From Jacaranda mimosifolia (Eukaryota; Streptophyta; Magnoliopsida; Lamiales; Bignoniaceae), in assembly GCA_018894105.1 (NCBI GenBank), contig CM032117.1, positions 37,180,501 through 37,244,500 on the forward strand: a stretch of 64,000 bases of DNA, given 5' to 3'. Every line of letters begins with the position of its first letter. The stretch's first letter is position 1. The translations under genes and the position numbers were made by a program. This document shows, one piece after another, positions 4,621 to 61,858 of this stretch. The notes under the pieces were generated by a model. The model had not been told where the DNA came from, did not search any database, and was given only the letters and a program-made list of their open reading frames with translations.

Positions 4621-5889
4621 TTTAAAAAGAATACTTGTTCATGATTCCTTTCACACTAAAATAATAGTACAATATGTCTATATTTTACAAATCATACAAT
4701 ACAAATAATTTTATAAAAATTCTCCAATTGAAATAAAGTACAATACAAATATTTCAACTTAACATGCCCTCCAGACAAGGATGAATTTAGCAGTTGTCAT
4801 AAGCACGTGTACATAGTCTATTTCTAATCTAACTTTTTTTAATTCTTTGCCTTTTTCACATTTTCTTTTCCTAATTGAAGAGAAATAAAATCAATCAAGT
4901 TATTAAATGTAATGAAAAATGGTAATACAAGTACAGATATACAATAAAATGGTAAGCAAACCATTATCGTATCAATTTGCACTAAAGGGTAAGAAAGTGA
5001 GTTTTACTTAATAGAAGCGTAAGCTTGCTTCCAAAGTATTATATCATTTTGCAATATGTTCTATCATCTTGCTCTACCCTACAACTCCAACTCTGTAAAT
5101 CCACAACATACAATTTATTATTATCAATCATTTCAAAACTCCAACCACTACTAATATGCAAATTGAGCAAAAGTATTGCAGTATCAGTGTGGACGTCCTA
5201 AATTGCACTAATGTCATACTAATCATTGAACTACTAAATGTGATAATGTATAAATAAAGTATCTTATAAAAGGAACAAAACATATAACAGTTAGTTACTA
5301 ATTGTAACACATCGGAAGTACACCAAAGAATTAATGCAATACTCATATTGAAAATATGAAGAACTTGCCAATATGTATAGCCGATTTTCCTTCCACATCC
5401 TTTCGGTGAATTTTTTGTAAGACCATCATAACAATAATGGCCATTTTCAGGCAAATATGTAACCTAATCGTATTGAAAATCTAATTATCAGTACCTAAAG
5501 TGACATACTTTTTTTTTTTGAGGTGGAGTGAAATATTGCAATGCGGTGAACTCAAAACTAATTCTAGATCATCTTTTCCCAATATGAAACAATAACTTTA
5601 TCAAACTCATACCTTCATAAATTGAAAAAAATGTAGAGTTTCCCATTGTTGACACAACTTTCCAATAGAGTTTGAGCATATTGGCCACTCGAAGATATTT
5701 TAATTAAGCTCAAATTGACGACGACTTACCTTCTTTTTCCTATTGTTACACAATTATTAAACTCCAACTTATAATAGAATACAAGAAATGAGGTTAGTGA
5801 TCTTTGGATTTTTCCTGCTGAAATAGTTTGAGAATAGTGAAAAAATGAAAAAAAACCAATCTTTAGGTGTTTGCAGTAGTGAGCCATAG
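4621..5889. other. AT-rich DNA, no gene recognised
   Basis: Nothing beyond short ORFs. One minus-strand ORF at 5128-5454 (108 aa) has an uneven, partly protein-like start followed by hydrophobic Ile/Leu/Cys-rich sequence. It has no motif I recognise and could be an exon scrap or chance. Confidence 0.4.
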
Positions 5890-5912
5890 TAGATAGATAG
5901 ATAGATAGATAA

Positions 5913-5955
<43 letters not shown>
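5890..5955. repeat. Compound microsatellite (GATA)n-(GA)n
   Basis: About five GATA units (5890-5912) run into an uninterrupted GA tract to about 5955. The 91-aa minus-strand ORF covering it (Ser-Leu repeats) is repeat translation. Confidence 0.95.
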
Positions 5956-5959
<4 letters not shown>

Positions 5960-7089
5960 TATTAGCTAAAAGAGAAGAGAAAATAAGATATTTGGGGGTT
6001 ATTTCGATCAAACCAAGTGAATGGATAGTGAACTCAAAACACAATATTAAAATGGGGAGTTAAAATTGAAAAATGGTGGATAAGGACTGGCACCTAAAAT
6101 GAAAATGGGAATTCGTGCTTTTGAATAAGATCCAGTCATAAAAATGCATATTAATTAAAGAAGAAAAATGATGGCAACTAAATGATTCAACCAAAAAATC
6201 TATAAATTGTATGTATTGGTAAAAATATTACTATTTATTGCATATGAATAAAATCATAAGTCATTGTTTGAATATAAAGCCAATAGATGCATATGCAGAG
6301 AGATAACAGAGAAAGCAAGTAAGCACTCATGTTATAACATGTCGATTTTGGTGCATTATTGGAATTCTACCCTTGAAATGTTGACAAAGATGATCATCTT
6401 TTGTGTTGCTTGAAAGTGGAGTTAGGGTGCTTCATGAAAAATAGCTAATTTGAGAAGATTTTTGCTTCAGAATGTAGAACTTGAGATTTTAAATAAATGA
6501 TTTTTTGTGTCCATTTTGACTTTGGGAGTCGATATTTATATTGACTAAGTGCTTAGTGGACTTTAGGCCACTTGGATAGGTGTATCTATCTTGATGGGCT
6601 TAACAAATTGGGCTTATTAGCATTTCACTTAACTATGGGCTCTTTTATTTATTCTTTTACATTTTTTTTACCTTCAAGGCCTTTTTTTTTCCATATGATC
6701 AAGCCCCTACTTTCAATTTGAAAACATAATTACATATTGAAAGTATATTATAAGTTTTAATTTTAATTATAGTTTGTCTCAATTAATTAATTAAATTTTG
6801 ATAATTTATTTTTTTAATTTTGACTATGAAAAATTTGAAGAATTTGATGGTTGATTAAGTTGAGATTCTTAGGTTTCCTTATTTGGTTGTTCTTAGGAGA
6901 TGTCTTGTTAGGCACTTTGTATTCACCTAAGGACATAGACAGATTTTGGCAAGTTTGGACTTTCAAGAAATAGGCCTTGTTAGCGATGTAAGATAAGTTC
7001 CCATGGTAATTTCTTTTCATTTACCTCACTTTATTACCTTGCAATTATTTTCTAACTCCTTAGAGTCAATAAAATTTTCTTGGGATATG
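5956..7089. other. No gene or known repeat recognised
   Basis: AT-rich sequence with a 68-aa minus-strand ORF (6814-7020) lacking recognisable motifs. Confidence 0.35.
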
Positions 7090-9210
7090 TTAGCTTAGGA
7101 GTGAGACATGTCTAGCATCGAAAGCAGGATATCGAGTAGGGGACTAATTTCAAATTAAAGTCCAATTCTAAGTTGAAGTCAGAGTTCGTATGTCTGATAG
7201 AGGCTAGCTGCGGGATCGCTGAGGCTAGGCACTAGTGCACCAAATGCCAGCAGGGCCTGGTGTCTCTTGTTGGGGGACGCTTGGAGTAGACACCCTTGTG
7301 CTACGCAGACGCCCTAGCACAGGCGACCATGGTCATATTAAGGTTGTCAGAGTTCGTGGGGGTTGTCCTACACATGGTGTCATTGTATTTTTTGACTTTG
7401 TGAACCGATTTGGACACAAAATCTAGTCTAGTCTTGTGTCTTGAGATTGCGCATCAAGAACGCTTTAATTAGTCCTTGGTTTTGAGCTCTCTTCTTCATT
7501 TAAGTTTGATTCTCAGTCTGAGTTTGGAGAAGAGGATTATGTTGAGGAAGGGTCCAAGGTTGCTCCAAATGTTGCTTGTAGTTTCGTCACTATTGATGCA
7601 ATACCTTGTTCACTTTCGTTGGGTGAGGTAAAAATTCTAAGGCGTGGGTTCTCCAACTTTGACTAGTATGTTTGGTTTTTCTTTTTTTGGAGGATCGCAT
7701 TGTATTGCCTCCTTCAAGGTATTCACTATTTTCAATGATTATATTAGTAGTAGGTTTTTTCTTCCTCTTGATCTTTTATTGTTGGAGCTAATAAGGAAGT
7801 TACAATATGTGTTTGAGTCAATTTACTCTAAACTCCTTTGCATATTTTATAGGATTTCAACCCTGCTTTAGGGAATTAGGTCTTCTTATCTCTTTAAATA
7901 GTTCTAATTCCTTGTTCGAGTGTGGAATGAACCAAATAAAGCTTTTTTGCACATTTTCCTAGACTAAATCATAAATTCCCAAGTGGTTTCATTATTTTAG
8001 AGGGCCTTGGAAGAGTGGATTTTTCTTTGTGTGAGATGAAGATTAGGAGTTACCAGTGTTTGCACTAGCTCATTGTCTCTAGTGCACATGTGAAAGGTTC
8101 ATCGCAACCTATGCTAGTGCTTTGAGGACGCAAGATTGTTCCTTTCTTTGTTACCTATATGTTTTCTGAGGATACTTAGTTAATTTTGTAGCTTTTATTC
8201 TGCTTGTGTGCTTATTACTATAGTCTTGTTTTCTTCTTAGTACTTTCTTTATTTTTGCCAATTATTTGTTGGATTGTTGAACGTAACCCACTTCACGTGT
8301 TCTTGACAGGAAAGAAGATTAATTTGATGAGGATCTAGGCTAGGAGGGTAGATGGAGGTTCTTGTGAGAGGCGCACGGTGGAGCAGTACAGAAGGAGGCA
8401 TCACTTGTACCGGGCGGCATCTAAGCTCTTCACAGCTGCATTTAGGGAGATTCGTGCTTTGTCTTCTTGTAAAGCACCTTAAGCTGGCACTGGTTTTGAT
8501 TTTAAGCCGGTGATTTTAGGATCAAATAGAAAATGTGCTTGGAAATTAGTTCTAGGAGGTACTTGTTTGAAATCTTTTTGCCTTTTCCATTTTGGTAAGG
8601 GAAACGGTTTGTTTCGCTATAGTCTACATTGAAGTTGTGGTATTAACTCACATTAGGATGTCAACGAGATTGCTTTTAGCACAAACAACCTATGGAGCGG
8701 GGTTAGGAAGTATGATTTGGAAAAGTTTGAGATATCTCCTTTTTTCAATTGAGTAAGTTAGCCTCTGGAGACTTAGTTTGGGTTAGGGATTTCCTCCTTA
8801 ATTTATTTTGATTGTATACTATATTCATGGTCGTGCATACTTATTTGACCATTTTGTTTATGATTTTCACCAAGGATTTGAATTTGGTTGTGTAGATATC
8901 TCGCCAAGCAATAGGGACTAAAACTAGGATAATTCTACTTAAGGAGAAGGACTTATGACTCTCTTAGTAGCATGCTCAGAAGATTGAGGAGTTTACAAAG
9001 TTGCTAAAGGAACATAAGCAGCTGAAGGCGTGGTATATTAAGTAGGTGAAGGCAAAGAGGAAATTCTTGGAGTCTCTCATTGAAAAGCTACTTGTGTCTA
9101 CTGTGCGCAATAAGGTAGTAAAGGAATTTAAGGGCTCTGACAAATTTTTTGAGGTAAAGGCTTCTGTGATCTATGAGCATACCAACTAGGATTGTTGTAG
9201 CTTGCTTTGT
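7090..9210 (+). pseudogene. Decayed 'putative gypsy-type transposon' domain gene
   Basis: Base composition changes from AT-rich to mixed, and fragments of protein-like sequence appear in shifting plus-strand frames. Near 7500-7640 there is an acidic stretch. Near 7745-7860 a hydrophobic stretch containing PLDLLLLELIRKL, continued in another frame by SQFTLNSF, follows the pattern of the plant domain called putative gypsy-type transposon (PF04195-like), where a 'FPLHPF...L...QL.PN.W' arrangement is usual. Downstream, 8335-8480 (Arg-rich) and 9000-9190 (Lys/Glu-rich, coiled-coil-like) resemble the C-terminal half of such proteins. Many stops and frame changes rule out a working gene. The family match is by eye and tentative; a generic gag remnant is the alternative. 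Confidence 0.4.
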
Positions 9211-12227: not shown

Positions 12228-12722
12228 AATTAATAGAGATTAATTGAATGAGTTATTAGTTTAAAGGAGTTTAAACTAATTCGAATATTTCAATATTCAA
12301 CATATCATAAAAGTTGTGAGCCCATGTCCAATGAATAGGAGAACCTAATGGGTCACACATAAAAACCTAAAGAAAGTTATATTTGTTGGGAGGAATTTTC
12401 TAAAGAGTTAGAAAATTTATTCTAGCGATTTTTTGTGGAGAAAATCGGTTGGCTAGTTTTTAAGTCATTTTGGCTTGATTAATTTAATTGTTAAATTAGT
12501 CAAAATAATTTAAGGAGTTAAATTAGACCAATTAAATTAAGAAGTTAATTGTTTTTAGTCAAAATAGTTAAGGAGTTAATTTAATTGGTGCCATATGACA
12601 ATTATTAGTCAAGTTAACTTAAAAAGTTAAGTAGACACCTTCTAACTTAAAGTGTTAAGTTAGTTGACTTAAGGAGTTAAGTCAAGACCAATTAATTAAA
12701 TTAAAGAGATAATTTAATTAAT
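12228..12722 (+). other. Hairpin array in LTR of copy A
   Basis: Separate short inverted repeats follow one another: 12,228-12,245 (AATTAAT, loop AGAG), about 12,259-12,282 (TTAGTTTAAA, loop GGAG), 12,478-12,502, 12,507-12,524 (AATTTAA, loop GGAG), 12,642-12,663 (CTAACTTAA, loop AGTG), 12,664-12,685 (TTGACTTAA, loop GGAG) and 12,691-12,722 (13-bp stem). Most stems are perfect. The same array, with partly different stems, is in every other LTR of the family. Confidence 0.85.
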
Positions 12723-16296: not shown

Positions 16297-16541
16297 TGTT
16301 GAAATAATGCCCGGCAAGCCAATTAGATTGGCCTCATAAAAGCTATTTCGTTGTAAAACAATCTTGATTGAATGATATTCTTTATATGGCCACCTTCATC
16401 TTATGCTTTTTATTACTTCACTTGCATTTGGATGAAGCCCCTAGATCACTTATGACTATGGGACTTGGTTCGGTGACCATGGAATAAGTCTTACACGATT
16501 GTGATCTTAAATTTTCCAAGTCGTAGGATCTCATAAGATAG

Positions 16542-17366
16542 GGATTTGGGAGAAGTATCGTACATATTGAGAATACATATCTCTAAAAATGGATCTAAGA
16601 GGATGCTGGGGATATCCCAGACCCTGTACATTGATAAGATACTAAAGAGGTTTAGTATGAAAGAATCCGAGAAGGGATTTCTTCCCATGGGACATGGCAT
16701 TCGTCTCTCCAAGTCAATGGCCCCCAAGATAGAGGAAAAGAAACGAAGGATGTCCTACATTCCTTATGCCTCCACCATTGGTAGCATAATGTATGCAGTT
16801 CCATATACAAGACTGGACGTGGCATACTCGCTAAGTGTTACGAGTAGGTTCCAATCCAATCTCGATGAGAGTCACTGGATAGCCATTAAAGCAATCCTTG
16901 AGTACTTGAGAAGGACTAAGAACTTGTTTTTGGTATACGCTAATTGAGAATTGAAACTAGAGGGGTTTTCGGATTCAAGTTTCCAATCCAATATAGATGA
17001 CCTAAGATCCACCTCTGGATGTATATTTTGCCTCAATGGTGGCACAGTGAGTTGAAAGAGTTCCAAACAAGATACCACGAACGATTCTACCACAGAGGCA
17101 TAATATATTCTGGCTTAAGAAGCTGCAATGGAAGGTGTTTGGATGAAAAACTTTATTCAAGAGTTGAATGTAGTGTCTAGCATTACTGAGCCAGTGGTTG
17201 TCTATTGTGACAACAACGAGGCAGTGGCATAAGACAAAGAGCCAAGATCTCATCATAAATCTAAGCACATTTTGAGGCGATATCATTTGATCCAGGAGAA
17301 CATTGCTAGAGGCGACATCCGAGTGGAGAGAGTTGCCTCGGAAGAGAATATAATAGATCCACTAAC
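16542..17366 (+). pseudogene. RT-RNase H fragment grafted inside the 5' LTR of copy B
   Basis: The translation opens inside the RT C-terminal part (a GEVSYILRIHI segment, then YIDKILKRFSM), continues through FLPMGHGIRLSKSM and the thumb/connection region, and reaches the RNase H end (a DNNEAV-like metal-binding stretch near 17,205-17,225, then HHKSKHILRRYHL and RGDIRVERV). Frames break at 16,945 and 17,104. It aligns with 24,036-24,860 of the same element and 48,100-48,950 of copy C. The left joint is at about 16,541 and the right joint at about 17,359-17,370, where CCACT is shared by the RNase H and LTR parents. Confidence 0.85.
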
Positions 17367-17780
17367 AAGTCTTTCAGGTTGAGATTGGGTATGAGCTACT
17401 TGGCATGGAGGTTTGTGAGATCCAAGATAGAATTCGACTCCTCGATTTTATGAAAGGCGAGTTCATCTCCTATGTATTATATAATGATTGATTCCAAGAA
17501 ATCCTTGCATAAGGTGGTGTGACAATTTAGAAAAGGAATTTTCTAAAGATGAGGTCACACAAGGGAATTGAACATTGGGAATAGAGACATAGTATCGATA
17601 CTATTAGGAAGCCGACAAATATCTTGACCTAGGCCTCTTTCGGGAGATAGGAGACTGAAGAACCGTATTTGCATGGTAAGCATAGAGCTATATTGGTTCT
17701 CCAAAATATTCATTTTGGCCAATTAGTTGGGCTCCATGGGCTTGAGGTTGGACATTGACCCTAGAGATTAGGTACTCCTC

Positions 17781-18234
17781 AATTAATGAGATTAATTGAA
17801 TTGAGTTGAATAGTTTAAAAGTGTTTTAAACTAAAATGAATATATGATATTCAAAAGTCACAAGGAGTTGTGAGCCCATGTCCAATGAATGGTAGAACCA
17901 ATTGGGTCACACACAAAAGCCAATTAGCTTCGCAGTTGATGGAGCAATTTTCTAAGAGTTAAAGAATTTCTCTTAGTGGATTGATTTTGAGGAGTCCAAT
18001 TTAAAGGTCAATTTTGACTTGATTAATTTAAGTGTTAAATTAATCAATTAATTTAAAAGGTTAAATAAGACCATTAATTAAGGAGTTAATTAATTCGTGC
18101 CAAAGTGACCATCAATTGGTCAAGTTAACTTAAAGAGTTAAGTTAACAAAATTAAGCTTAAGAGTTAAGCTTGTTTGACTTAAGAGTTAAGTCAAAGGTT
18201 AATTAATTAAATTAAAGTGTTTGATTTAATTAAT
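17781..18234 (+). other. Hairpin array in 5' LTR of copy B
   Basis: Perfect or near-perfect short hairpins: 17,781-17,797 (7-bp stem, loop GAG); 17,812-17,832 (9, GTG); 18,021-18,045 (11, GTG); 18,073-18,094 (9, GGAG); 18,106-18,122 (6, TCAAT); 18,124-18,147 (10, AGAG); 18,154-18,172 (8, GAG); 18,175-18,195 (9, GAG); 18,202-18,234 (15 with one mismatch, GTG). The last six lie almost end to end. Confidence 0.9.
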
Positions 18235-18443
18235 GGAAAGAATACATTTTGGAGGGAAAGTTAAAATGAAATTTTCATTTGAATTAGCATCTTAATTAGC
18301 TTGAAATTAGATTTCAAATGTAATTAAGATGCATATGAAATTCAAATTGGATTTGAAATTGCATTTGCCACCTTGGCAATGCTAGTTGGTTGTCCACCTT
18401 GAGGAAGGTTTGATGCCAACTTGGAATCACACCAATATCACCC

Positions 18444-18451
18444 TATATATA
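18444..18451 (+). promoter_or_regulatory. LTR promoter TATA box, 5' LTR of copy B
   Basis: TATATATA followed by GATA, at the same LTR position as in the other copies. Confidence 0.6.
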
Positions 18452-18545
18452 GATATATTGGGTGTAAGGATAGGTCATTGCTGAAAGTGTGAAAGAATTA
18501 GATTCTTTTGCAATTCTCTCCGAAACAACTTGCAAGCATTATCAT

Positions 18546-18580
18546 TCTTCTTCTTCTTCTTCTTCTTCTTCTTCTTCTTC
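18546..18580. repeat. (TTC)n microsatellite in R/U5 of copy B
   Basis: About 11-12 TTC units in the 5' LTR; the matching place in the 3' LTR (26,628-26,640) has about four. The Ser-rich ORF at 18,489-18,728 is its translation. Confidence 0.95.
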
Positions 18581-19072
18581 CCTACCTCAAAACCGCCTCC
18601 ACCATTATCATTCTCCTCTCTTATTCCAGCTTATAGTGAGGAGATTTTGGAAGTTTTATTGGTGTGTGGATCATATCAATAGAGGCAAACAAGTTAGTTT
18701 GCTACGGTTTGGAGATCCACTTGTGTAGAGCACCGATTTGGCGAATTGTTACAGGGAGATACAGAAATATTTTTGATCCAAATTTTTTATTGTGTTTCCT
18801 CCAAGGTGTTGGAGGTTTCGGTATTTTTTTTGTGAATTTTGGAGGAGTTTTAATGCGGTTAGAAATCGCTCCCTCCCTGCTGCGTAGTTTCTGGCAGATT
18901 TTGGATTGGTGAAAGGTTCACCACTTTCTCCTTGGATATTTGCATTTCAAGGTAACACTCTATATAAATCTTGATTTTAGGCATGATTTGATCCTAGTTA
19001 GCATGTAAGCACTATTTTATTTATCTTATAAAGTTTTTATAATTGGATCCTAGTGTCTTACTTGCTTTCAAG

Positions 19073-19085
19073 TTGTATCAGAGCC
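19073..19085 (+). other. Primer-binding site, copy B
   Basis: TTGTATCAGAGCC, identical to copy A and two bases after the LTR end; complementary to initiator Met-tRNA with one mismatch. Confidence 0.8.
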
Positions 19086-21023
19086 TAAATAATGCTTAGA
19101 TTTTGATTTTTTGTTGATGATTGATTCATGTGATGGATTGATCAAAATCACCAAATTCTCGATTCATATTATGGATTGGAGTGTTTGGATGATGTTGTGC
19201 GTGGCTCCTTGATTGATGAATTGAAAGTATGCTAATATGTGTTTTAAGTGTTGATTCATATGATTAGTATGTTTTAATTCAGAGCTTTTAATGTTAAATG
19301 TTGTTTTAGCAATTGATGTTATATGATGATATAGCATGTTAAATCTAACATTAATGTGTTTTGGTCATTTTTGGATCCAATTTGATTGGAGTTTTGTTGG
19401 AGATTTTTGACGAATGTGATTCTTACTTAAACTAGTTTTTTGAAGCTTGAAAGAACGCTTGAATTTCCACTTTTAAAAGTTGTTTTGAATCTGGAAATTC
19501 TATCTAAAATGTGTGATGGCATGTTTAGGAGGTGTCCTAAAATTTTTGGTGCATAAAAGTTGAGCTGAAAATAAGGTAATTTGGTCCTTAAGCGAAATCA
19601 TAAAGCCTGCCGCGCATGGTCTGGCGTCGATCGGCTAGCCTGCACACGCCCAGCCCGTGCGCAGGGGAACTATTTGCCAAGGATGAGTTTTAACCTAAAT
19701 TTGTGTTTCCTTTAATGCTCAAAATAATTTTGCATCACACATAGAAGATGCAAAAGTATTGTGCAAGTGTTCAATAAAATGTTTGACATTTTTTCAAGCT
19801 TCTTAAAAATTGTTGAAGTTAATCTCCAAATGTTGCATAAGTTTTATGCATGACCAACTATTTGTTAATTTGATTAGCATTTAATTGATGAAATTAATTA
19901 TTAATTCTAGATTTATTTATTGTTCATTTAATTGTTGAATGGATGATGAATGAATGAGGATGATCATGAGCTTTTAATATCGATTTTATTTATTTCAAGT
20001 TGTTGAAATGGGTTATATTAAATTGGGGCTTGCATGCCTCTTTATTTCTACCTTGTAAATGTGATGAGAGTAGAATCACTAGGAGTGAGGATTTCTTTCT
20101 CATGTAAAAGTTACATGGTGCAAAGGAGACCATGAAGGCATGGAGACTTTTGATGATCCATGAATGTATGAGATACAATCATGCAATAGCTAAATTTAAT
20201 CAACCCACCTAAAATCAACTAGGTGGTGCACATATGGCTTTAAGTGCACCACTTGGTTAGGCTCATGGTCATCCCACCCTAGAAGCATGCTAGGCGCATT
20301 TACTTATTTATGCTTTCTATATCCTATTGATGTATGAGATGCATGTTTAGGATATAGAAAACCTAAATAAGAAGATAAAATGATGAAATCTTTGCAAGCA
20401 AAAACCCTCAACTTAGAATGTCTATGTATTTTTCAAATATGAAGTCGAAATGGATACAAATTAAAAGAGTTTTAATTAATCTAAGCCTTCTACCAATAGT
20501 GTATGCCATGACGATGCAGCCAATTTTGTGTGATGGCACTCGTACGGTCACACTTAGGAGGAAAGCTATGAGCATGCATTTAGCATAAGATGCACTTTGA
20601 CTTAGGAATGTTCACACATTAGCAATCGTACACGAGGGACGATGCGGTGCCCATCTTGAGTCAAAGATTGATTAGTAGGCATGACTTAATGCTTAGTACC
20701 ATAGATGGCACACGTATACGTGGGTTTATGTCAAAAGTGAGGCAAAACATATCGAGAGTTGCATGAGATGTAATTAGAAAAAGTTGCTTACCCTTCGATT
20801 GCTTGTGGATGACACTCGTACACGGGGGTCCACTTGCAAGTCCTTGGGATCTTAATTCTCACTAGGAAATATGATTTCTCGAATTCTTCTGGGAGGTGAA
20901 GAATTTGATAAAATAGTGGGAGAAAAACATGATTGAAAGACCATGAACATGTTTTTATATCAATTCAATCAAATGCTTATACTTTTTTTCGCCTATTGTA
21001 GATTTTCCAAATCTTCAAACAAA
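19086..21023 (+). other. Untranslated leader, copy B
   Basis: Collinear with the leaders of A and C. It holds a GC-rich island at about 19,605-19,680 unlike that of A or C, and four copies of a CACTCGTACACGGGGGTC-like motif at about 20,535-20,550, 20,623-20,640, 20,707-20,726 and 20,812-20,830. Confidence 0.65.
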
Positions 21024-21662
21024 ATGGCTAAGAATCTAATCGCATCTATTTTGGAAACCAATAAACTCACTGGGCCTAACTTCCAAGATTGGTTGAGAAA
21101 CCTTAAAATAATTCTTGACTATGAAAAACGAACTTACGTCTTTGATCAAAGTTCCATGGACACACTTGGTGATGACGCCAGTGACCAACAACGTGAAATG
21201 TTCATGAAATTTGTACATGATGATCTACAAGTTAGATGTGTCATGATGGCCTTTATGTCCAATGAGCTCCAAAAGACTCATGAGCGCATGAAACATGCTC
21301 GAGAGATCTATGTACACTTACAAGAGTTATATAGTGTACAAAATAAACACGAAAGGTTCTCTTTGTCCAATGAGCTCTTTAGGACAAAGATGAGTGAATG
21401 GTCGAATGTCCATGATCACGGCCTCAAGATGATAGGACTCACTGAGAAGCTTGGACATTTAGATATGGTCATGGACAACGACCTTTACGTGGATTTGATC
21501 CTACAGTCGTTGCCGCCATCATATGATCAATTCGTTATGAACTTCAATATGTCCAAGCAAGAAGTTACAATTAGCGAGTTGATCAATATGCTTGTGACCG
21601 TGAAGGCGACTATGAGAAAGGAGAAGCCCCTTATGGGAGGTAAAATGAAGAAAAGTTCATAA
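21024..21662 (+). pseudogene. gag, copy B
   Basis: The longest open gag in the window. From ATG 21,024 (MAKNLIASILETNK) it encodes about 212 residues to a TAA at 21,660-21,662. It covers the N-terminal W-L-R-N-L-K segment, an ELQKTHERMKHAREIY helix, and the conserved ILQSLPPSYDQFVMNFNM motif typical of the copia UBN2 gag domain. The zinc knuckle lies past the stop, in another frame, so gag is split from its RNA-binding part. ATG 20,943 is also in frame but lies in the leader; 21,024 is preferred because the start is conserved in A and C. Confidence 0.85.
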
Positions 21663-24600
21663 AAGTTGCATCCTCCTACAAGTCAAAGGGCTCTAGGGTT
21701 CATAGAAATGGAGGTAAGAGGAAGAAAAGTTCTTTCTCGAAAGGAAAGCAAGTCGAGAAGAGTTCTGGGAGGGTTAAGAAGAAGGCTAAAACCAAAGCTA
21801 GTTGTTTTCATTATGGCGAGAAGGGGCATTGGAAGAGAAATTGCAAAGCTTACCTTGCAACCCTTGAGAAGGGTATGTACTTTATTGAAGTGCACATGAT
21901 GACTAATGCTTCCACATGGGTATTTGATACCGCATGTGGTTCTCACTTTTGTAATTCGTTACAGGAGATAGAAAGAAGAACGAGTCTTCATGAAGGGATA
22001 TGATCCCCCACTTAGGAAATGGAGCGAGAGTTGCGGCCATTTTCCAAGGCGTTATCAAGTTGGACTTGGGGAATGCTTGCATTGTACTTGATCCGTTTAT
22101 TATGTACCCCGTCTTGTTAAGAACATTATTTCAATTCCCGTTCTTGATAATGAAGGATTTGATTTTTCTATTTCGAATGGGATGTTGAAAGCATTAAAAA
22201 ATGGTTCTTTAATTGCACAAGGTATATTGATGAACGGATTGTACATACTTGATTATCAACCTTCACTAATGCACATTCAATCAAGTAAAAGAAAGTTAGA
22301 TAACCAAGATGATGCCATGTGATAACATGTAAGACTTGGACATATTACTAAAAACAGGATGAACAAGTTAGAAGCCCTCAAAGTACTAAATGTTAGTGGC
22401 ATTGAGGGTCTTCCTACTTGTGAATCTTGTTTAAAAGGAAAAATCACCAAGGCTCCTTTTGTAGGACAAATGGAGCGCTCAAAAAGTCTTTTGGATTTGA
22501 TCTATACGGATGTTTGTGGTCCATTAAGGGTTAATGGAAAAGGAGGCTATTCCTCCTTCATCACCTTCACCGATGATTATAGTCAGTACGGACACGTGTT
22601 TCTTATAAAGAACAAATCTGAAGCCTTTGAAAAGTTCAAAGAGTATGGAATGAAGTGGAAAAGAAATTGGGGCTAAGTATTAAAGCTCTTCGATTGGATC
22701 AAAGGGGAATACTTAAGCACTGAATTCTTGGATTATCTAAAAGAGAATGAGATTCTCTCTCAATGGACTCCTCCTGGCACACCCCAACATAATAGAGTAG
22801 CCAAGAGGAGAACCATACCCTGTTAGACATGGTATGTTCCATGATGAGCTTTTCCAATGTGCCCATATCCTTTAGGGGATACGCCTTAGTCATGGCAATG
22901 AAGCTACTAAATATAGTACCTTCAAAGTCAGCGCCTAAAACACCATATGAGATATGGCGTAGCAAAGCACCCTCTTACCAATATCTCAAGGTTTTGGGGA
23001 TCTCTTGCTTAAGTGAAACGGACGTGAGATGGACAATGGGAGATAAGTTGGATAGTGGATCCACCTTGTGCAAGTTTGTGGGATACCCTAGAGAGTCTAT
23101 GGGTTACTACTTCTATGATCCCTTGGAACAAAGGGTGTTTATTTCAAGGAACGCCCACTTTTTGGAAAAGGAATTTCTATTAGGTAGAAATGGAAATGTC
23201 GTTGAATTTGATGAAGTGCAAGATGATCAAGAAATCCCACAAGTAGTGGAAACAAATGAGCAACAAGAGCCTCACACACAATCTCTAAGAAGGTTGGACC
23301 AAATCAAGAAGCAACCCGAAAGGTTCAGATTCTTTCATGAAATGGGCCAATCGGATAATGATCATAAGACCTATGAGAAAGCTATGTTGGACATAGATTC
23401 GGGATGTTGGCTTGAAGCCATGAGATCTGAAATGGACTCCATGTATTTAAACAAAGTATGGACTTTGGTAGATCCAATAAAGAGAATAGTTCCCCTAGGT
23501 TGCAAGTGGATTTATAAGCGAAAGCTTGGAGTAGATAGAGAAGTGGTAACTTTTAAGGCGCAACTAGTGGCAAGGGGTTACACTCAAAGACCCGGTATTG
23601 ATTTCGAGAAAACCTTTTAACTAGTCACAATGCCTAAGTTTCTTCGGATTCTACTTGCCATAGCTACATATTATGATTATGAGATATAGCAAATGGATGT
23701 TAAAACCGCTTTCTGAATGGAGACATTAAAGAAGAAATCTATATGGGGCAACCACAAAGTTTTACATCTAAAGGGAGTGAGCAAAAAGTTTTCAAACTCC
23801 TAAGATCTATTTATGGAATCAAACAAGCATCCTGAAGTTGGAACATACGTTTTGACAAAATGGTCAAATCAATTGGCTTTGTCAAAAATGTGTATGAACC
23901 CTGTGTGTATAAGAAGGCTAGTGGGAGTAGTGTATAATTTATTATGCTTTATGTCGATGGCATCCTTCTAATTGGGAATGAGGTAGGAATGTTAGAGTGT
24001 ACTAAATTGTGGTTATCTACACAATTCTCCATGAAGGATTTAGGAGAAGCATCCTACGTGTTAGAAATACGTATCTATAAAGATAGATCTAAGAGGAAAT
24101 TGAGCCTATCCCAAATCCCATACATTGACAAGATACTAAATAGGTTTAGTATAGAAAAATCCAAGAAGGGATTTCTTCCCATGGGACATGGCATTTGTCT
24201 CTCCAAGTCTATGGCCCTCAAGACAGCGGAAGAGAAACGAAGGATGCCCCACATACCTTATGCCTCCACTATTAGTAGCATAATGTATGTAGTTCAATAT
24301 ACAACACCAGATGTGGCACACTCGCTAAGTGTTACGAGTAAGTTCTAATCCAATCCCGGTGAGAGTCGTTGGATAACCGTTAAAGTAATCCTTAAGTACT
24401 TGAGAAGGACTAAAAACTTATTTTTGGTATACGACAATGGAGAATAAAAACTAGAGGAGTTTTCGGATTCAAGTTTCCAATCCGATGTAGATGACCTAAA
24501 ATCCACATCTAGATTTATATTTTACCTCAATGGCAGCGCGGTGAGTTAGAAGAGTTCCAAACAAGATATCACGGCTGATTCTACCATAGAGGTAGAATAT

Positions 24601-24938
24601 ATTATGGCTTAAGAAGCTGCAATAGAAAGTACTTAGATGAAAAACTTCATTCAAGAGTTGAATGTAGTGCCTAGCATTACTGAGCCAGTAGTTGTCTATT
24701 GTGACAACAACAGGGTAGTGGCATAAGCCAAAGAGCCAAGATCTCATCAGATATCCAAGCACATTTTGAGGCGATATCATTTGATCTGGGAGATCATTGA
24801 TAGAGGCGACATCCGAGTGGAGAGAGTTACCTCGGAAGAGAATGTAACAGATCTACTGATAAAACCCTTAAGCAAAAGGTCTTTGAAGAACATCTTGGGA
24901 AGATGTGTCTCAAGGCCATGGGAAATTGGCTTTAGGGC
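21663..24938 (+). pseudogene. pol, copy B (zinc knuckle, protease, integrase, RT, RNase H)
   Basis: Remnants in order. Zinc knuckle near 21,805-21,850 (CFHYGEKGHWKRNC; second Cys is Tyr). Protease near 21,915-21,955 (WVFDTACGSHFC; DTG is DTA). GAG-pre-integrase near 22,340-22,450 (CESCLKGK). Integrase core 22,480-23,000 with TDVCGPL holding the first catalytic Asp. Linker with Pro/Gln-rich part at 23,200-23,340. RT from about 23,390, with YVDGILLIG at 23,950-23,991 in place of YVDD. RNase H to about 24,900. At least eight stops or frameshifts (for example 22,676, 23,618, 23,940, 24,346) make it non-functional. The longest open piece, 22,829-23,620, spans the integrase end to the RT start. Confidence 0.85.
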
Positions 24939-24949
24939 AAGTGGGAGAT
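24939..24949 (+). other. Polypurine tract, copy B
   Basis: AAGTGGGAGAT immediately before the 3' LTR; purine-rich plus-strand primer site, matched by purine-rich sequence before the LTRs of C and D. Confidence 0.65.
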
Positions 24950-27131
24950 TGTTGGAATAGTGCCCGGCAGGCCAATTATATTGGCTTTGTAAAATAATCT
25001 TGATTGATTGATATTCTTTATATGGCCATCTTCATCTTATGCTCTCTATTACTTCACTTGCATTTTGATGAAGCCCTTAGATCACTCTTGACCGCGGGAC
25101 TTGGTTTGATGACCATGGAATAAGTCTCACATGGTTGTGATATTAAATCTTCCAAGTTATAGGATCTTACGAGATGGGGCATCTAAGATCCGGATAGACT
25201 TGCACTAACGATGCATAAATCAAAGAGTTGGATATTGCTCCATTTCATGAGCAACCGTATCAGATATAGTTTATGTTAATGGGTGCTTATTAGAGAACAA
25301 GGCACTGAAGGCCCACCGGAGAATCTACTAGATAGCCGTAGTGGCAAGTCGGTAGTGGCAAATTCTCCAGCTTACGCTAGTGTATATTATTAGTACTCTG
25401 ACCTGAGGATCTATGGTAACCTTGTGTCTGGTCAACTTGCTTTGACTCTTCCTTGACCACTTAGCAGGTCTTTCAGGTTGAGGTTGGGTATGAGCTACTT
25501 GGCATGGAGGTTTTTGAGATCCAAGATGAAATTCGACTTCTCGATTTTGTAAAAGGTAAGTGCATCTCCTATATAGTCTATAATGATTGATTCCAAGAAA
25601 TCCTTGCGCAAGGTGGTGTGATAATTTAGAAAAGGAATTTTCTAAAGATAAGGTCACACTAGGGAATCGAACATTGGGAGTAGAGACATAGTATCAAGGC
25701 TATTAGAGAGCTGGCAAATATCTTGCCCTTGGCCTCTTTCGGAAGATAGGAGACTGAAGGACCGTATTTGGATGGTAAGCATAGAGCTCTAATGGTTTTC
25801 CAAAACATTCATTTTGGCTAATTAGTTGGACCATGGGCTTGAGGTTGGACATCGACCTTGGAGTCGAATAGTTTAAAAGTGTTTTAAACTAAAATGACTA
25901 TATGATATTCAAAAGTCACAAGGAGTTGTGAGCCCATGTCCAATTAATGGTAGAACCAATTGGGTCACACACAAAAGCCAATTAGCTTCCTAGTTGATGG
26001 AGTAATTTTCTAAGAGTTAGAGAATTTCTCCTAGTGGACTGATTTTAAGGCGTCCAATTTAAAGGTCAATTTTGCCTTCATTAATTTTAATGTTAAATTA
26101 ATCAATTAATTTAAAAGGTTAAATTAGACCATTAATTAAAGAGTTAATTAATTGGTGCCAAAGTGACCATCAATTAGTCAAGTTAACTTATAGAGTTAAA
26201 AGTTAACAAAATTAAGCTTAAGAGTTAAGCTTGTTTGACTTAAGAGTTAAGTCAAACGTTAATTAATTAAATTAAAATGTTTGATTTAATTAATGGAAAG
26301 AATACATTTTGGAGGGAAAGTTCAAATGAAATGTTCATTTGAATTAGCATCTTAATTAGCTTGAAATTAAATTTCAAATGTAATTAAGATGCATGTGAAA
26401 TTCAAATTGGATTTAAATTTGCATTTGCCACCTTAGCAATGCAAGTTGACCGTCCACATTGAGGAAGGTGTGATGCCAACTTGGAATCACACCAATCTCA
26501 CCCTATATATAGACATAGTGTGTGTGAGGATAGGTCATTGCTGAAAGTGTGAAAGAATTAGATTCTTTTGCAATTCCCTGCGAAATAACTTGCAAGCATT
26601 GCATTCATGCGTTGAAAGTTTTGCTCTCTTCTTCTTCTTCCCTACCTCAAATCCGCCTCCACTATTATTATTCTCCTCTCTTATTCTAGCTTATAGTAAG
26701 GATATTTTGGAAGTTTTATTGGTGTGTGGATCATATCAATAGAGGTAAACAAGTTAGTTTGCTATGGTTTGGAGATCCACTTGAGTAGAGCACCGACTTG
26801 GGCTAATTTTTCTGGGGAGATCCAGAAAGCTTTTTGATCCAAATTTTTATTATGTTTCCTTCAAGGTGTTGAGAGGTTATAGTAATTTTTTTTTGAATTT
26901 TGGAGGAGCTTTAAAGCAGTTAAAAATTGCTCCCTTCCTGCTGTGTGGTTTCTGGCAGATTCTAGATTGGTGAAAGGTTCACCACTTTCTCCTTGGATAT
27001 TTGCATTTCGATGTAACACTCTATCTTAATCTGGATTTTAGGCATGATTTGATCCTAGTTAGCATGTAAGCACTAGTTTATTTAGCTTATGAAGTTTTTA
27101 TAATTGGATCCTAGAGCCTCACTTGCTTTCA
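24950..27131 (+). repeat. 3' LTR of copy B
   Basis: 2182 bp, starting TGTTGGAATAGTGCCC and ending GCTTTCA, followed by the target duplicate CTCAC. It has the ordinary family structure without the RT graft, a TATA box at 26,504-26,511 and the hairpin array at about 26,090-26,300. ORF 25,328-25,657 on the minus strand is LTR translation. Confidence 0.9.
26504..26511 (+). promoter_or_regulatory. TATA box, 3' LTR of copy B
   Basis: TATATATA in the conserved LTR position. A working 3' LTR could drive transcription outward into 27,132 onward, but activity cannot be judged. Confidence 0.5.
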
Positions 27132-45891: not shown

Positions 45892-48048
45892 TGAAAGCTA
45901 GCAAGGCACTAGGATCCAATTATAAAACTTCAAAAGCTTAATAAACTAGTGCTTACATACTAACTAGGATCAAATCATGCCTAAGATTTAGATTTAGATA
46001 GAGTGTTACCTTGAAATTGCAAAATCCAAGGAGAATGAGGTGAACCTTTCACTAATCCAAAAACTGCTAGAAGATGCGCAGCAGGAGTGGAGCGATTTTT
46101 ACTACTATCAAATCACCTCCAAAAATCACGAAAAAATTACTGGAGCTGGTCAACACCTTGGGAAGCTCTCAGTAAAAAATTCAAACCACAAAATTTTTTG
46201 GATCTCCCTAGAGAAAATTGCCAAATTGAACTTTGCATAAGTGGACTCCAAACCATAGTAAACTCACTTGTTTGCCTCTATTGATATGATCCACATACCA
46301 AATAGATCTTACAAAATCTCTGGCCTATAAGCTGGAATAAGGCCAGAGATTAAAAATGGCGTGGGCCGAACTTTGGTAGGGAAGAAGAAGAAGAGAGCAA
46401 AACTTTCAACACATGAATGCAATGCTTGCAAGGATTTTGGAGGGAATGGTGGAGAATCTAATTCTTCACACCTTTTGAAATAATTAACTAGCCCTTTCTA
46501 TCTATATCTATATATAGAGTCTGAAAGGTATGATGCCAAGGCCTCCCATGAGGAAAATGGGTGGTCAACTTGCATTTTGCCAAGGTGGCAAATGCAAATT
46601 CAAATCTAATTTGAATTTCATTTGAAATCAAATTTCAAGTTAATTAAAATGCTAATTCAAATGAACATTTCATTTGAATTTTCCCTCCAAAATGTGTTCC
46701 TTCCATTAATTAAAGTAAGCACATTAATTTAATTAATTAACCTTTGACTTAACTTTAAGTTAAACAAGTTCAACTCTTAAGCTTGCATTTTGTTAACTTA
46801 ACTCTTTAAGTTAACTTGACCAATTGGTCATATTGGCTCCAAATAATCCACTCCTTAATTATTGGTCTAATTTAAATTTCTAAATTAATTGATTAATTTA
46901 ACACTTAAATTAATCAAGCTAAAATTGACCTTCAAAATCGGCACCTTAAAATTGGTCCACTAGGAGACATTTTCTAACACTTAGAAAATCTTTTCTCCAT
47001 CAAATAGAAAGCTAATTGGTTTTTGTGTGTGACCTAATAGGCTCTACCATTCATTGGACATGGGCTCACAACTCCTTGTGACTTTTGAATATTATATATT
47101 CAATTTAGTTTAAAACACTTTTAAACTAATCAACTCAATTCAATTAATCTCATTAATTGAAGAGTACCGAATCTCCATGGTCGATGTCCAACCTCAAGCT
47201 CATGGAGCCCAACTAATTGGCCAAAATTAACGTTCTGGAGAACCATTATAACTCTACACATACCATGAAAATACGGTTCTTTCGTCTCTTATCTCCCAAA
47301 AAAGGCATAAGGCCAAATACTTGTCGGCTCCCTAATAGCCTCAATGCTATGCTTCTATTCTCAATGTTTGGTTCCTTTGTGTGACCTCAGATTTGGAAAA
47401 CTCCTTTTCCAAATTGTCACACCACCTTGCACAAGGATTTCTTGGAATCGATCATTATAAAATACATAGGATATGCACTCGCCCTTAACAAAAGTGAGGA
47501 GTCAAATTCCATTTTGGATCTCACAAACCTCTATGCAAATAGCTCATACCCAACCTCAACCCGAAACACCCGCTAAGTGGTCAAGGAAGAGTGAAAGCAT
47601 GAGGACCAGACACAAGGAGAACTTGCTATTACCAACTTGCTACTACGGTTATCTAGTAGATTCTCCAGTGGCCCTTCAGTGCTTTATTCTTAACAAGCAC
47701 CAAACATGCACCCATATCTCATACGGTTGCTCATGGAATGGAGTAATATCCAACTCTTGTATTTATGCATCGTCAGTGTAAGTCTATCCAGATCTTAGAT
47801 GTCTTGTCTCATAAGATCCTATGACATGGAAGATTTAAGATCACGACCGTGTGAGACTTATTCCATGGTCACCAAACCAAGTCCCGTAGTCATAAGTGAT
47901 CTAGGGTCTTCATCCAAATGCAAGTGAAGTAATAAATAGCATAAGATGAAGATAAACATATAAAGAATATCATTCGATCAAGATTATTTTACAAGGAAAT
48001 AGCTTATACAAGGCCAATCTAATTGGCTTTTCGGGCACTATTCGAATT
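45892..48048 (-). repeat. 3' LTR of copy C
   Basis: 2157 bp. Its inner edge (minus-strand start) reads AATTCGAATAG where the family has TGTTGGAATAG, so the first bases have mutated. TATA box at 46,509-46,516 and hairpin array at about 46,700-46,920, including a perfect 10-bp stem with a 4-base loop at about 46,794-46,817. Confidence 0.88.
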
Positions 48049-51000: not shown

Positions 51001-51120
51001 TTTTCTTTCCATCCCCTATACCGAATTACAAATGTGAGAACCACATGCGGTATTAAATACCCATGTGGAAGAATTAGTCATCATGTGCATTTCAATAAAG
51101 TACATACCTTTCTCAAAAGT
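48049..51120 (-). pseudogene. pol, copy C
   Basis: Minus-strand order: protease near 51,030-51,060 (NTACGSH; DTG lost), GAG-pre-integrase 50,560-50,700 (NARLGHI, ESCLKGK), integrase 50,000-50,550 (HTDVCE keeps the first Asp; RSNQGG has Asn for the second), linker 49,480-49,850, RT 48,750-49,480 with YVDG at 49,030-49,041, RNase H 48,100-48,650 with the chromodomain-free end usual for copia. Stops and frame changes at several places (for example near 49,482, 49,820, 50,220). The purine-rich GTAAATGGGAGAT next to the 3' LTR serves as polypurine tract. Plus-strand ORFs in this span are shadows. Confidence 0.87.
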
Positions 51121-53865: not shown

Positions 53866-53867
53866 CT

Positions 53868-56112
53868 TGAAAGCTAGTAAGGCACTATGATCCAATTATA
53901 AAACTTCAAAAGCTTAATAAACTAGTGCTTACATGCTAACTAGGATCAAATCATACCTAAGATTCATATTTGGATAGAGTGTTACCTTGAAATTGCAGAA
54001 TCCAAGGAGGATAAGGTGAACCATTCACCAATCCAGAAACTGCCAGAAAATGCACAACAGGAGTGGAGTGATTTTTACCACTGTCAAATTATCTCCAAAA
54101 ATCACAAAAAATAATGGATCTGCTCAACACCTTGAGGAACTCTCAGTAAAGAACCTATACTGAAAAGATTTTTGGATTTCCCTAGAAAAAATCGCCAAAT
54201 CGGATTCTGTGCAAGTGGATCTCCAAACCTTAGCTAACTCACATGTTTGCCTCTATTTATATGATCCACTCACCAAATTAGATCTTCCAAAATATCTAAC
54301 CTATAAGATGGAATAAGGCCAGAGATTAGCTATGGTGGAGGTCGAATTTTGGTAGGGAAGAAGAAGAAGAGAGCAAAGCTTTCAACACGTGAATGCAATG
54401 CTTGCAAGGATTTTGGAGGGAATGGTGGAGAATCTAATTATTCATACCTTTTGACATAATTAACTAGCCTTCTCTCTCTATATCTATATATAGAGGCTGA
54501 GAGGTATGATTCCAAGGTGGCATCACACTTCCCATGAGGAAAATGGGTGGCCAACTTGCATTTTGCCAAGGTGGCAAATGCAAATTTAAATCTAATTTGA
54601 ATTTCATTTGCATTTTAATTACATTTGAAATCTAATTTCAAGTTAATTAAAATGATAATTCAAATGAACATTTCATTTGAATTTTTCCTCCAAAATGTGT
54701 TCTTCCCATTAATTAAATTAAATATTTTAATTTAATTAGTTAACCTTTGACTTAACTCTTAAGTCAAACAAGCTCAACTCTTAAGCTTGCATTTTGTTAA
54801 TTTAACTCTTTAAGCTAACTTGACCAATTGATGGTCATATTGGCACCAAATAATTAACACCTTAATTATTGGTCTTATTTAACTCCTTAAATTAATTGAT
54901 TAATTTAACACTTAAATTAATTAAGCTAAAATTGACCTTCAAAATTGGCACCTTAAAATCAGTCCACTAGGAGACATTTTCTAATACTTGGAAAATCTTT
55001 TCTCCAATAAATAGGAAGCTAATTGGCTTTTGTGTGTGACCCAATAGGTTTTACCATTCATTGGACATGGGCTTACAACCCCTTATGACTTTTGAATATC
55101 ATATATTCAATTTAGTTTAAAATACTTTTAAACTGATCAACTCAATTCAATTAATCTCATTAATTGAAGAGTACCCAATTTTCATGGTTGATGTCCAACC
55201 TCAAGCCTATGGAGCCTAACTAATTAGCCGAAATGAATGTTCTGGATAACCATTATAGCTCTACTCATACTATGCAAACACGGTCCTTCTGTCTCCTATC
55301 TCCTGAAAGAGGTTTAGGGTAATATCTTTGTAGGCTCCCTAATATTGTCGATGCTATGCTTCTATTCTCAATGTTTGATTTCCTTGTGTGGCCTCATCTT
55401 TGGAAAACTCCTTGTCCAAATTTTCACACCACCTTGCGCAAGAATTTCTTGGAATCTATCATTATAGAATACATAGGAGATGCACTCACCCTTCAAAAAA
55501 ATAAGGAGTCGGATTCTATCTTGGATCTCACAAACCTCCATGCCAAGTAGCTCATACCCAATCTCAACCCGAAAGACCCGCTAAGTGGTCAAGAAGGGGT
55601 CAAAGCATGAGGACCAGACACAAGGCTACCATGGATCCTTAGGTCAGAGGACTAATAATGTGCACTAGTGTAAGTTGGAGAACTTGCCACTACCGACTTG
55701 CCATTACGACTATCTAGTGGATTCTTCAATGGGCCTTCAGTGCCTTGTTCTCTAACAAGTTCCAACTAACATACACCCATATCTCATACGGTTGCTCATG
55801 GAATAGAGCAATATCCAACTCTTTGATTTATGCATCGTTAGTGCAAGTCTATCCGGATTTTAGATTGCCTATCTCATAAGATCCTATGACTTTGAAGATT
55901 TAAGATCACGACCATTGAGCCTTATTCTATGGTCACCGAACCAAGTCCCGTAATCATAAGTGATATAGGGGCTTCATCCAAATGCAAGTGAAATAATAAA
56001 GAGCATAAGATGAAGATGGCTATATAAAGAATATCATTCAATCAAGATTGTTTTACAAGGAAATAGCTTATACAAGGCTAATCTAATTGGCTTGCCGGGC
56101 ACTATTCCAACA
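53868..56112 (-). repeat. 5' LTR of copy C
   Basis: 2245 bp, minus-strand start TGTTGGAATAGTGCCC at 56,112, end CTTTCA at 53,868. TATA box 54,485-54,492. Hairpin array about 54,700-54,925, including TTGACTTAA with loop GAG. Confidence 0.92.
54485..54492 (-). promoter_or_regulatory. LTR promoter TATA box, copy C
   Basis: TATATATA followed by GATA on the minus strand, in the conserved position. Confidence 0.6.
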
Positions 56113-59689: not shown

Positions 59690-61858
59690 TGCAAGGATAC
59701 AAAATAATTTCAAAAATTAAGCCAAAATTAAACTTGAAATATCACAAATCAATGATCTTATTTCATGCCATAAATACAAATTTAAAGCAGGCGAAACTAC
59801 CTTGAAATAAAAACTTGAATTTAAGGTGGAGATCTTTCACTAAAACCTCTTCTATGAATGATCAACCTCTCATTTCCCTTAGATCTTCTTCTCCATACCT
59901 TAGATCACCAAAGGCAGAAACTTTTGCTCAAGAAAACTCCAAATTGAGGCAAAAACAGCAAAAAAAATGTGCCAAGAGCACTATGGCCGCGCGGTGAAGC
60001 AATCTTCCAAAAATTGTGTTCCAACAATGGAAACTCTTCTCCAAATGCAAGATCCAGTTCACCAACACGTAGCACCCCAATTGTTGTGCCTCTAAAGATG
60101 ATCCACACACCTAGATATACTCTAGCTCCTCACTCAATATGCTAGAATATGGATGAGGAAGAAGAAGGAAGAAGGGAGATGGTGAGAGGAAGTGGGAAGA
60201 GAAAGAGAGGGTCGTTGGAGAGAACCTTGGGGAGAGGTTTTTCTCAACACATGAGGTAACCTATTTTGGGAGGAAAAATGGGAATCGTTGGCCAACCATT
60301 GTGAGAGATGTGTGGTATATTTATAGTGTGATTTGGCTGTTCTTTGAAGCTTCCATCATACTCTCCTTACAATGCCAACTTCTACGCCCAATTGCATACT
60401 TAGTTGGAATTTTAATTTGCAAAACTAAAATGCCAACTCATTAATTTAAAATGGAATCTTCCATTTTAATTTTTCCTCCAAAATTAGATTCTCTTTTTAG
60501 TTAAATAAATAAACTCCTTAATTTAATTAGATTAACTTAACTTCTTATGTTAATTATATCAATCCTTAAGTTGACCTTGACAAATTAAATTTCCACAAGG
60601 CACCAATTAAATTAACTTCTTAAATTAATTGATCTAATTAAGTTCTTAACTTATTTTGATTAGTTTAAAAATTAAATTAATCAAGCCATTGTGACAAACT
60701 ATTAATTTGTCAACTTGGTCTTTTCCAAACTTGACCACTTTAATTATCTAACTCTTTAGATCATTTCTCTAATATATTAATTAGAGTGATCTAGGCTCTT
60801 GTATGTGGCTCTTTAAGTTCACCAATTGATTAGACATGGGCTCACAAGTCTTTGTGATTTATAGAATATCAAATATTCTGATTAGTTTAAACTCTTTCAA
60901 ACTAATCACTCTATCAATTAATCTCTATTAATTGAAGAGTACCCAATCTCTATACTCGATGTCTAGCACAAGCCTCTGAGCCCAACTAATTGAATGAATT
61001 AATTTGAGGGTAAACCATTACCAACTATGATTGCCATGCAAATACGGACCTTTCATTTTCTATCTCCTGAAAGAGACATAAGGCAAGATATATGTCAACT
61101 TTGTAATAGCCTTGATAACGATATATTTGTTCTTGATGTTCGATTCCTAATTATGACCTCAACTTTGGAAAAATCCTTTTTCCAAATTGTTATACCACCT
61201 TTCACAAGAATTTCTTGGAAGCGGTTATCAGAAAATAGATAGAAGATTAACCTATTATTTATAGATGGGCGAAACGGATCCCATCTTGAAACTCACCAAC
61301 CTTCATACTTAGGTGGTTTGTGCCAAACCTAAGCTCTGGGCAATCGGCTATGTGGTTAGAGCAAAATCAAAGCACAAGGACCTAAATACAAGGTTACCAT
61401 GGAACCTCAATGCAAAGGACTAATTTATATGCACTATCGTAAGCTAGAGAATTTCTCACTATTGACGTGCCACTTCAGCTACCTTGTGGATTCTCTAAGC
61501 GAGTCTTTAGCATTCATGTCTGACATATATTGCCTATGGAATGGGGCAATATCCAACTCCTTGGAGTATGCATCGTTAGTGCAAGTGTATCCGAATCGTG
61601 GATTCCCTATCTCATAAGATTCTATGACTTGAAATATTTAAAATCATGACCATAGAGACTTATTTCATGATCACCATCATATGCGTGACCAAGTCCCATA
61701 GTCTTGTATGATTTAAGGGCTTCAACAAAATGTATATGAAGAAAATCATAAATGCATAGCTTGAACATGGCCATTTTATTGAATATCATTCAATCAAGAC
61801 TGTTACATAGAATAGTTATGCATGCCAATTTAATTGGCATGTGGGCACTATTCCAATA
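59690..61858 (-). repeat. 3' LTR of copy D
   Basis: About 2.17 kb, beginning (minus strand) TATTGGAATAGTGCCC where the family has TGTTGG. It keeps the TATA position (60,318-60,325, TATAAATA), the hairpin array (about 60,500-60,690, more eroded) and the conserved blocks around 61,050-61,640. Outer edge at 59,690 is estimated. Confidence 0.75.

Follow-up and report, generated by a model that had tools for sequence, protein, structure and literature searches.

A covarying array of small hairpins in the LTRs of a copia retrotransposon family

Introduction

Several copies (A, B, C, and D) of one copia family lie inside a 64-kb stretch of the Jacaranda mimosifolia genome, which is referred to here as the window. 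The 5′ LTR of copy B carries a row of short hairpins with small purine-rich loops. The locus raises the question of whether the pairing of these hairpins has been kept while their sequences changed, and if so, whether it matters as RNA or as DNA. We examined the array in the window and in related copies throughout the genome.

Results

The copia element and its copies in the window

Element B is of the Ty1/copia type, with a PF14223 gag domain (E = 3e-19) and RVT_2 in two pieces (E = 2e-10 and 4e-11). Downstream of gag lies a CCHC-like knuckle, imperfect in this copy. The LTRs of the family are approximately 2.2 kb long and start with TGTTG, and self-comparison revealed paired LTRs in both B and C. 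The 5′ LTR of B consists of approximately 2.2 kb plus a further segment (16,542–17,368). By self-comparison, this 827-bp segment resembles interior sequence at 24,036–24,857 and 48,955–48,136, and it reads, as far as the sequence indicates, as a nested or recombined structure. The features are listed in Table 1.

The motif TATCAGAGC at 19,076, after the 5′ LTR of B, is taken here to be the primer site, and TGGGAGAT before 24,950 is likely the polypurine tract. We take the sequence at 18,444–18,450 to be a TATA-like box. The array is located approximately 210–660 bp upstream of this box at 18,444; therefore, it lies in U3. A (CTT)n run is found at 18,545–18,581 in the LTR of B, approximately 100 bp downstream of the TATA-like box.

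Table 1. Coordinates of the element features, arrays, and hairpin slots in the window
Feature	Position	Strand	Basis or occurrence
Array, copy A (extra duplicated hairpin stretch; LTR from 11,269)	12228..12722	+	hairpin scan
5′ LTR, element B	16297..19070	+	TGTTG-type start; self-comparison
s0, upstream of array	17525..17547	+	slot in A, B and C
s1, 9 bp, loop GAG	17779..17799	+	slot in A–D
s2, 10 bp, loop GTG	17811..17833	+	slot in A–D
s3, 7 bp, loop ATG	17837..17853	+	slot in A–D
s3b, 6 bp, loop GGAG	17858..17873	+	slot in A–D
s4 slot, imperfect in B copy; perfect in many A, C, D copies	17947..17967	+	
s5, 13 bp, loop GTG	18019..18047	+	slot in A–D
s6, loop AAGG in B; GGAG or AGAG elsewhere	18049..18068	+	
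s7, 9 bp, loop GGAG; both arms differ, A/D versus B/C	18073..18094	+	
s8, 6 bp, 5-nt loop TCAAT	18106..18122	+	
s9, 10 bp, loop AGAG; one pair mostly C-G in D, T-G in A, T-A in B and C	18124..18147	+	
s10, 8 bp, loop GAG; both arms differ between subfamilies	18154..18172	+	
s11, 10 bp, loop GAG; D without typical hairpin at slot	18174..18196	+	
s12, 15 bp with one T-G pair, loop GTG	18202..18234	+	
s13, just beyond 18,234; paired differences D versus rest and within B	18264..18280	+	
TATA-like box, B 5′ LTR (presumed)	18444..18450	+	read by eye
gag open frame, element B (PF14223, copia-type)	20937..21659	+	domain match
RVT_2 pieces, element B, frames interrupted	22796..24345	+	domain match
Purine stretch TGGGAGAT immediately before B 3′ LTR	24942..24949	+	sequence reading
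3′ LTR of B, array at ~25,868–26,300	24950..27131	+	self-comparison; hairpin scan
Array, C 3′ LTR (LTR ~45,892–48,048)	46690..47161	-	self-comparison; hairpin scan
Array, C 5′ LTR (LTR ~53,868–56,112)	54690..55168	-	self-comparison; hairpin scan
Decayed array, copy D	60480..60935	-	hairpin scan

Hairpins are concentrated in a part of U3

Between 17,781 and 18,234, the 5′ LTR of B contains 12–13 hairpins with stems of 6–15 bp, where the original prediction had counted nine. Eleven of them are perfect and non-overlapping, s12 has one T-G pair, and s4 is imperfect. Related hairpins extend up to approximately 250 bp upstream and 190 bp downstream of this interval. In B and C, slots s14–s17 (loops TAG, TGG, CCT, and ACT) continue to the TATA-like box, at 18,280–18,440 and the homologous C positions. 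The stem sequence differs from slot to slot, and a TTAA core is repeated at many slots. The array starts approximately 900 bp into the LTR, has a GC content of 0.29, and contains two CG dinucleotides in 490 bp.

Hairpin number was far above that of shuffled sequences in five of the six window copies. Stems of at least 8 bp with 3–4-nt loops number seven in the 5′ LTR of B, compared with 0.07 per dinucleotide shuffle; the count is also seven in the 5′ LTR of C, and it is six in A, in the 3′ LTR of B, and in the 3′ LTR of C. None of 500 dinucleotide shuffles reached the observed count in any of these five. The array had been predicted for every LTR of the family, and it was found at the expected places in A, in both LTRs of B, and in both LTRs of C, the latter on the minus strand. 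The hairpin scan detected no perfect stem of at least 8 bp in copy D (60,480–60,920), though at least 8 of 12 slots there still have 80% standard pairs.

The hairpin density is 16.3 per kb in the array and 2.5 per kb (one hairpin) in U3 before it, and it is zero both in the 180 bp after the array and in R-U5. The interiors have 0.47 (B) and 1.27 (C) hairpins per kb, counted over stretches that include approximately 0.5 kb of LTR. The interior of C (47,570–53,867, minus strand) contains eight perfect hairpins, with a shuffle mean of 0.4 and a maximum of 2. Two other copia loci had one hairpin each in the 3 kb scanned downstream of RVT_2, where the 3′ LTR was possibly not reached, and two loci are too few to judge family specificity. 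An Rfam search of 17,300–19,200 gave no match at the curated score; the only hit was DicF, below the cut-off (E = 0.18) and outside the array.

Copies of the array in the genome

Each genome search with an array gave 40–42 matches, only the best 40 of 4495–7142 first-look candidates being scored; therefore, the family is larger than counted here. The analysis covered 159 copies in four subfamilies (A, 39; B, 29; C, 51; D, 40), and some tables were based on 91 of them. The window's own copies (L001, L009, and L039) and further arrays in flanks were left out, and LTR pairs of one insertion and duplicates were counted separately. We used per-subfamily alignments with loop-anchored slots; a single MAFFT alignment misplaces arms where the loop length differs between subfamilies (3 versus 4 nt). 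The slots were taken from hairpins that are perfect in some copy of each subfamily, the exceptions being s10 in C and s4 in B, with a G-T pair or mismatches. No s8 or s11 slot was defined in D. Changes were mapped by simple parsimony on one FastTree tree with a midpoint root.

A typical hairpin is present at 12–14 slots in each subfamily. In each of the 159 copies, which were gathered by their similarity to the array so that its retention is partly ascertained, 8 or more slots retain 80% or more standard pairs. The arrays of A and B diverge by approximately 30% with their pairing kept. Whole hairpins have also been gained or lost, as copy A and one genomic copy (L025) carry an inserted hairpin-like stretch, another copy (L034) is without s10, and D is without s11. 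The insertions, at 12,530–12,580 in copy A and in L025, are located near slot s7. From their sequences, both gains seem to have arisen by local duplication.

Both arms of the stems change together

The two arms of each stem were mapped independently. On internal branches leading to at least four tips, there were nine same-branch double changes, eight of which gave Watson-Crick pairs. Six slid registers gave 0–2 such changes (0–1 Watson-Crick), and random partners gave a mean of 0.48 with a maximum of 5 in 500. Paired substitutions across the genomic LTRs are thus in excess of both slid and random pairings. Because both arms change together beyond these controls, pairing is kept within the replicating lineage of the element.

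The paired change proposed in the original prediction was confirmed, and its example, CTAACTTAA with loop AGTG in A and AAGCTTAA with loop GAG in B at the matching position, is correct. At 11 of the 15 variable positions, both arms differ and the pair is Watson-Crick in either state; these positions are distributed over s4, s7, s9, s10, s12, and s13. The other four comprise two-sided changes at s2-12 (T-G) and s8-2 (A-A in A) and one-sided changes at s10-3 (T-G) and s3-7 (C-A).

Changes that end unpaired make up 780 of 1177 at the tips and 12 of 61 on internal branches, under a parsimony rule that favours paired states at ties; this bias is absent from the same-branch double-change test. At the tips, 22 Watson-Crick double changes were found at true pairs versus 3–11 in slid registers. 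This small excess possibly reflects events before insertion that fall on the tip branch, or template switching.

Stems are constrained relative to spacers

Within subfamilies, the ratio of shared changes (clades of at least four tips) to private changes on the tree was 44:1270 (0.035) in stems and 110:1594 (0.069) in spacers (p = 1e-4). A comparison of stems and spacers by frequency gave p = 0.002 for A/T columns; for G/C columns, it gave p = 0.44 with 159 copies and p = 0.008 with 91. In the union of stems, 522 of the 560 commonest states are Watson-Crick pairs, 11 are G-T, and two are A-C, and the remaining 25 are located mostly at outer ends. The nine same-branch double changes, exceeding the slid registers and the random maximum, together with the lower ratio of stems than of spacers, support the predicted selection on structure.

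The description of stems that change around a fixed loop did not hold. The commonest pair is identical across the compared subfamilies at 126 of the 141 stem positions that could be compared, and a given slot can have different loops in different subfamilies (GGAG, AGAG, GAG, GTG, ATG, TTG, and TTCA). No constraint on the loop G positions was detected on the tree: their shared-to-private ratios, 7:119 (0.059) and 12:141 (0.085), are similar to that of spacer G (52:643, 0.081). Shared changes are scarce only at the middle loop base, which has 57 private changes and no shared one (p = 0.046). A frequency test of the loops in G/C columns gave p = 0.009 with 91 copies and p = 0.50 with 159. Of the 54 typical loops, 42 end in GxG, and 1250 perfect hairpins (stem of at least 7 bp, overlaps included) comprise 743 GNG loops, 507 others, and no CNC loop. 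Loop orientation is therefore fixed, by descent or by function.

RNA or DNA as the selected form

A selected RNA structure tolerates G-U pairs but not A-C pairs. Departures from Watson-Crick pairs toward G-T and A-C numbered 320:324 at the tips, 27:40 in clades of two or three, and 22:5 on internal branches (p = 0.0013). When the states were instead sorted by frequency, interior ones at 25% or more gave 8:0 versus 132:136 for singletons (p = 0.007), and 10:2 when the outermost pairs were included. Stepwise series were observed at s9 (C-G, T-G, and T-A) and at s10 in A (A-T in 13, G-T in 14, and G-C in three). A-C intermediates occur at s0 in B and in the outermost s3 pairs of A and D.

The G-T excess was downgraded because shared spacer changes are biased toward A>G over T>C. 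The shared spacer spectrum (A>G, 29; T>C, 8) predicts a G-T to A-C ratio of approximately 57:29 in stems, and 24:10 was observed with the same mapping. Against this spectrum, the excess gave p = 1.0 for A-T pairs, p = 0.013 for G-C pairs, and p = 0.09 for both combined. Folding energies failed to separate the strands in four copies with 25 shuffles each, and in the same comparison, antisense folds were more prominent by z-score than sense folds. Of the two forms originally proposed, RNA in U3 and a DNA cruciform, sense RNA is weakly favoured, and we infer it as the selected form only at that strength.

In the 159 copies, the strand bias of shared spacer changes (29:8) is less marked among private ones (182:121). 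It may represent the spectrum of reverse transcription or of editing, or else parallel G>A changes may have been misread.

Discussion

The array had been thought to be without a described equivalent in copia LTRs. However, copia elements of the Sirevirus group have palindromic repeated motifs clustered in the LTR upstream of the TATA box, with at least eight copies per element in the 13 elements having them, and the symmetric halves of these motifs are separated by a short spacer or none (PMC2829016). In maize, structure is concentrated in Copia LTRs, and small RNAs are in excess at the Sirevirus palindrome clusters; the authors ask why the palindromes persist and suspect a cis-regulatory function that outweighs the cost (PMC10760457). 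The array in this study likewise forms a palindrome cluster in a copia LTR upstream of a TATA box. The differences concern its composition and organization. In most Sirevirus elements, copies of a single palindrome built on a CGG-CCG core recur; these copies are often more than 85% identical and form CpG islands, Tnd-1 lacks the core, and the clusters begin 200–400 bp into the LTR. In contrast, the array is AT-rich, lacks the CGG-CCG core, has its own covarying stem at each slot, and starts much deeper in the LTR. No covariation analysis of Sirevirus palindromes was found in the available parts of PMC2829016 and PMC10760457. Another hallmark of Sireviruses is multiple identical polypurine tracts before the 3′ LTR, four on average (PMC2829016). 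When a repeated purine tract of this type was looked for, TGGGAGA was found twice in 23,401–24,955 of B. We do not file this family as a Sirevirus, and on sequence grounds, the array may be regarded as an AT-rich counterpart of the Sirevirus clusters. Palindrome clusters in copia LTRs are therefore already known, and it is the AT-rich, slot-specific, covarying form that is new.

Short hairpins with exposed purine loops are also found among the packaging hairpins of HIV-1, whose nucleocapsid reads the second and fourth bases of GGAG and GGUG loops, although replacement of the GGAG loop has little effect on packaging (PMC7599994). Many loops of the array are GxG-ended in the same manner. However, the HIV-1 hairpins are placed in the 5′ leader and the array in U3, where the loop Gs are without constraint on the tree. 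The CCHC zinc knuckles of Lin28 read GGAG or GGAG-like motifs, often in terminal loops (PMC3759924); these sites belong to an animal regulatory system, and the likeness is limited to the motif.

In LTR elements, the full-length RNA contains U3 close to its 3′ end. The best explanation, to which we give about an even chance, is that a row of approximately 14 small hairpins in the U3 of this high-copy copia family is kept by selection, most likely as an RNA domain. During the replicating life of the element, a change in one arm would be matched by a change in the other, selection keeping the pairing, and after insertion the array would decay in most copies. Most likely, the array would work in the RNA as a domain of hairpins strung like beads, situated after the polypurine tract and before R.

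The role of such a domain can be addressed by analogy. Our tentative first choice, though doubtful in itself, is that the domain compacts the genomic RNA or binds protein, perhaps engaging Gag or a host CCHC protein via the purine loops. Next, and somewhat less likely, the hairpins may hide AU-rich 3′-processing signals in U3 so that transcripts run into R, as suggested by the polyadenylated transcripts without R of the barley element BARE (PMC3735527). A more specific form of the first role, a multivalent U3 RNA element in which approximately 14 GxG-loop hairpins recruit the element's own Gag or a host CCHC protein as a packaging-type signal, appears improbable; the lack of constraint on the loop Gs on the tree argues against a reader of GxG loops.

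Other explanations account for parts of these observations. Cis-regulation at the DNA level, in which each palindrome is a symmetric protein site or a cruciform in the promoter part of the LTR, is rather unlikely, but it is consistent with several features. The array lies upstream of the TATA-like box, the Sirevirus clusters, for which a cis-regulatory role is discussed, are placed similarly in the LTR (PMC2829016, PMC10760457), the TTAA core at many slots and the stem constraint suit binding sites, and the G-T test is non-significant after the spacer correction. However, the stems vary so widely between slots that no single site is shared, half-site binding does not need complementary two-sided changes at outer stem positions, and a cruciform does not need a single loop orientation. 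We consider it distinctly unlikely that template switching, namely foldback copying by a polymerase or reverse transcriptase, produced the hairpins and their paired changes as structure without benefit. In RNA genes, a single event of this process can yield perfect stems as well as paired changes of several bases (PMC8794818), and both are seen in the array, where several differences are adjacent pairs or changes in arm length (s7 and s10) and where the private copies have a small paired excess. Foldback growth, as originally proposed, can thus give two-sided changes, and foldback copying, also during reverse transcription, may be a contributor. By itself, however, it does not predict a lower rate of change in stems than in spacers. 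The paired changes are moreover concentrated on internal branches, and the frequent unpaired outcomes at the tips indicate that host replication does not keep repairing the stems. Furthermore, arm switching can invert spacers (PMC8604942), but CNC loops are absent.

A neutral origin, in which an AT-rich LTR has inherited an old inverted-repeat array with nothing maintaining it, is the least probable explanation. It agrees with loop Gs that evolve like spacers and with a likeness of the subfamilies that is largely inheritance, as shown by the shared commonest pairs. However, the same-branch double changes and the stem constraint contradict it, unless the controls are flawed, for example in slot registration, and pairing has been kept despite the divergence between the A and B arrays.

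A hairpin array kept by selection thus remains our preferred explanation. The comparison of private and shared changes separates mutation from selection in repeats, with dead copies serving as the neutral baseline. Since the stems are specific to their slots and covary, the selected thing is the pairing and not one sequence motif, and the question shifts from which protein binds the palindrome to why this stretch must fold. If the array is a packaging-type signal, it and the known ones would occupy opposite ends of the RNA. An RNA domain, if true, would also provide a reason at the RNA level why copia LTRs keep palindrome clusters despite the small RNAs that they attract.
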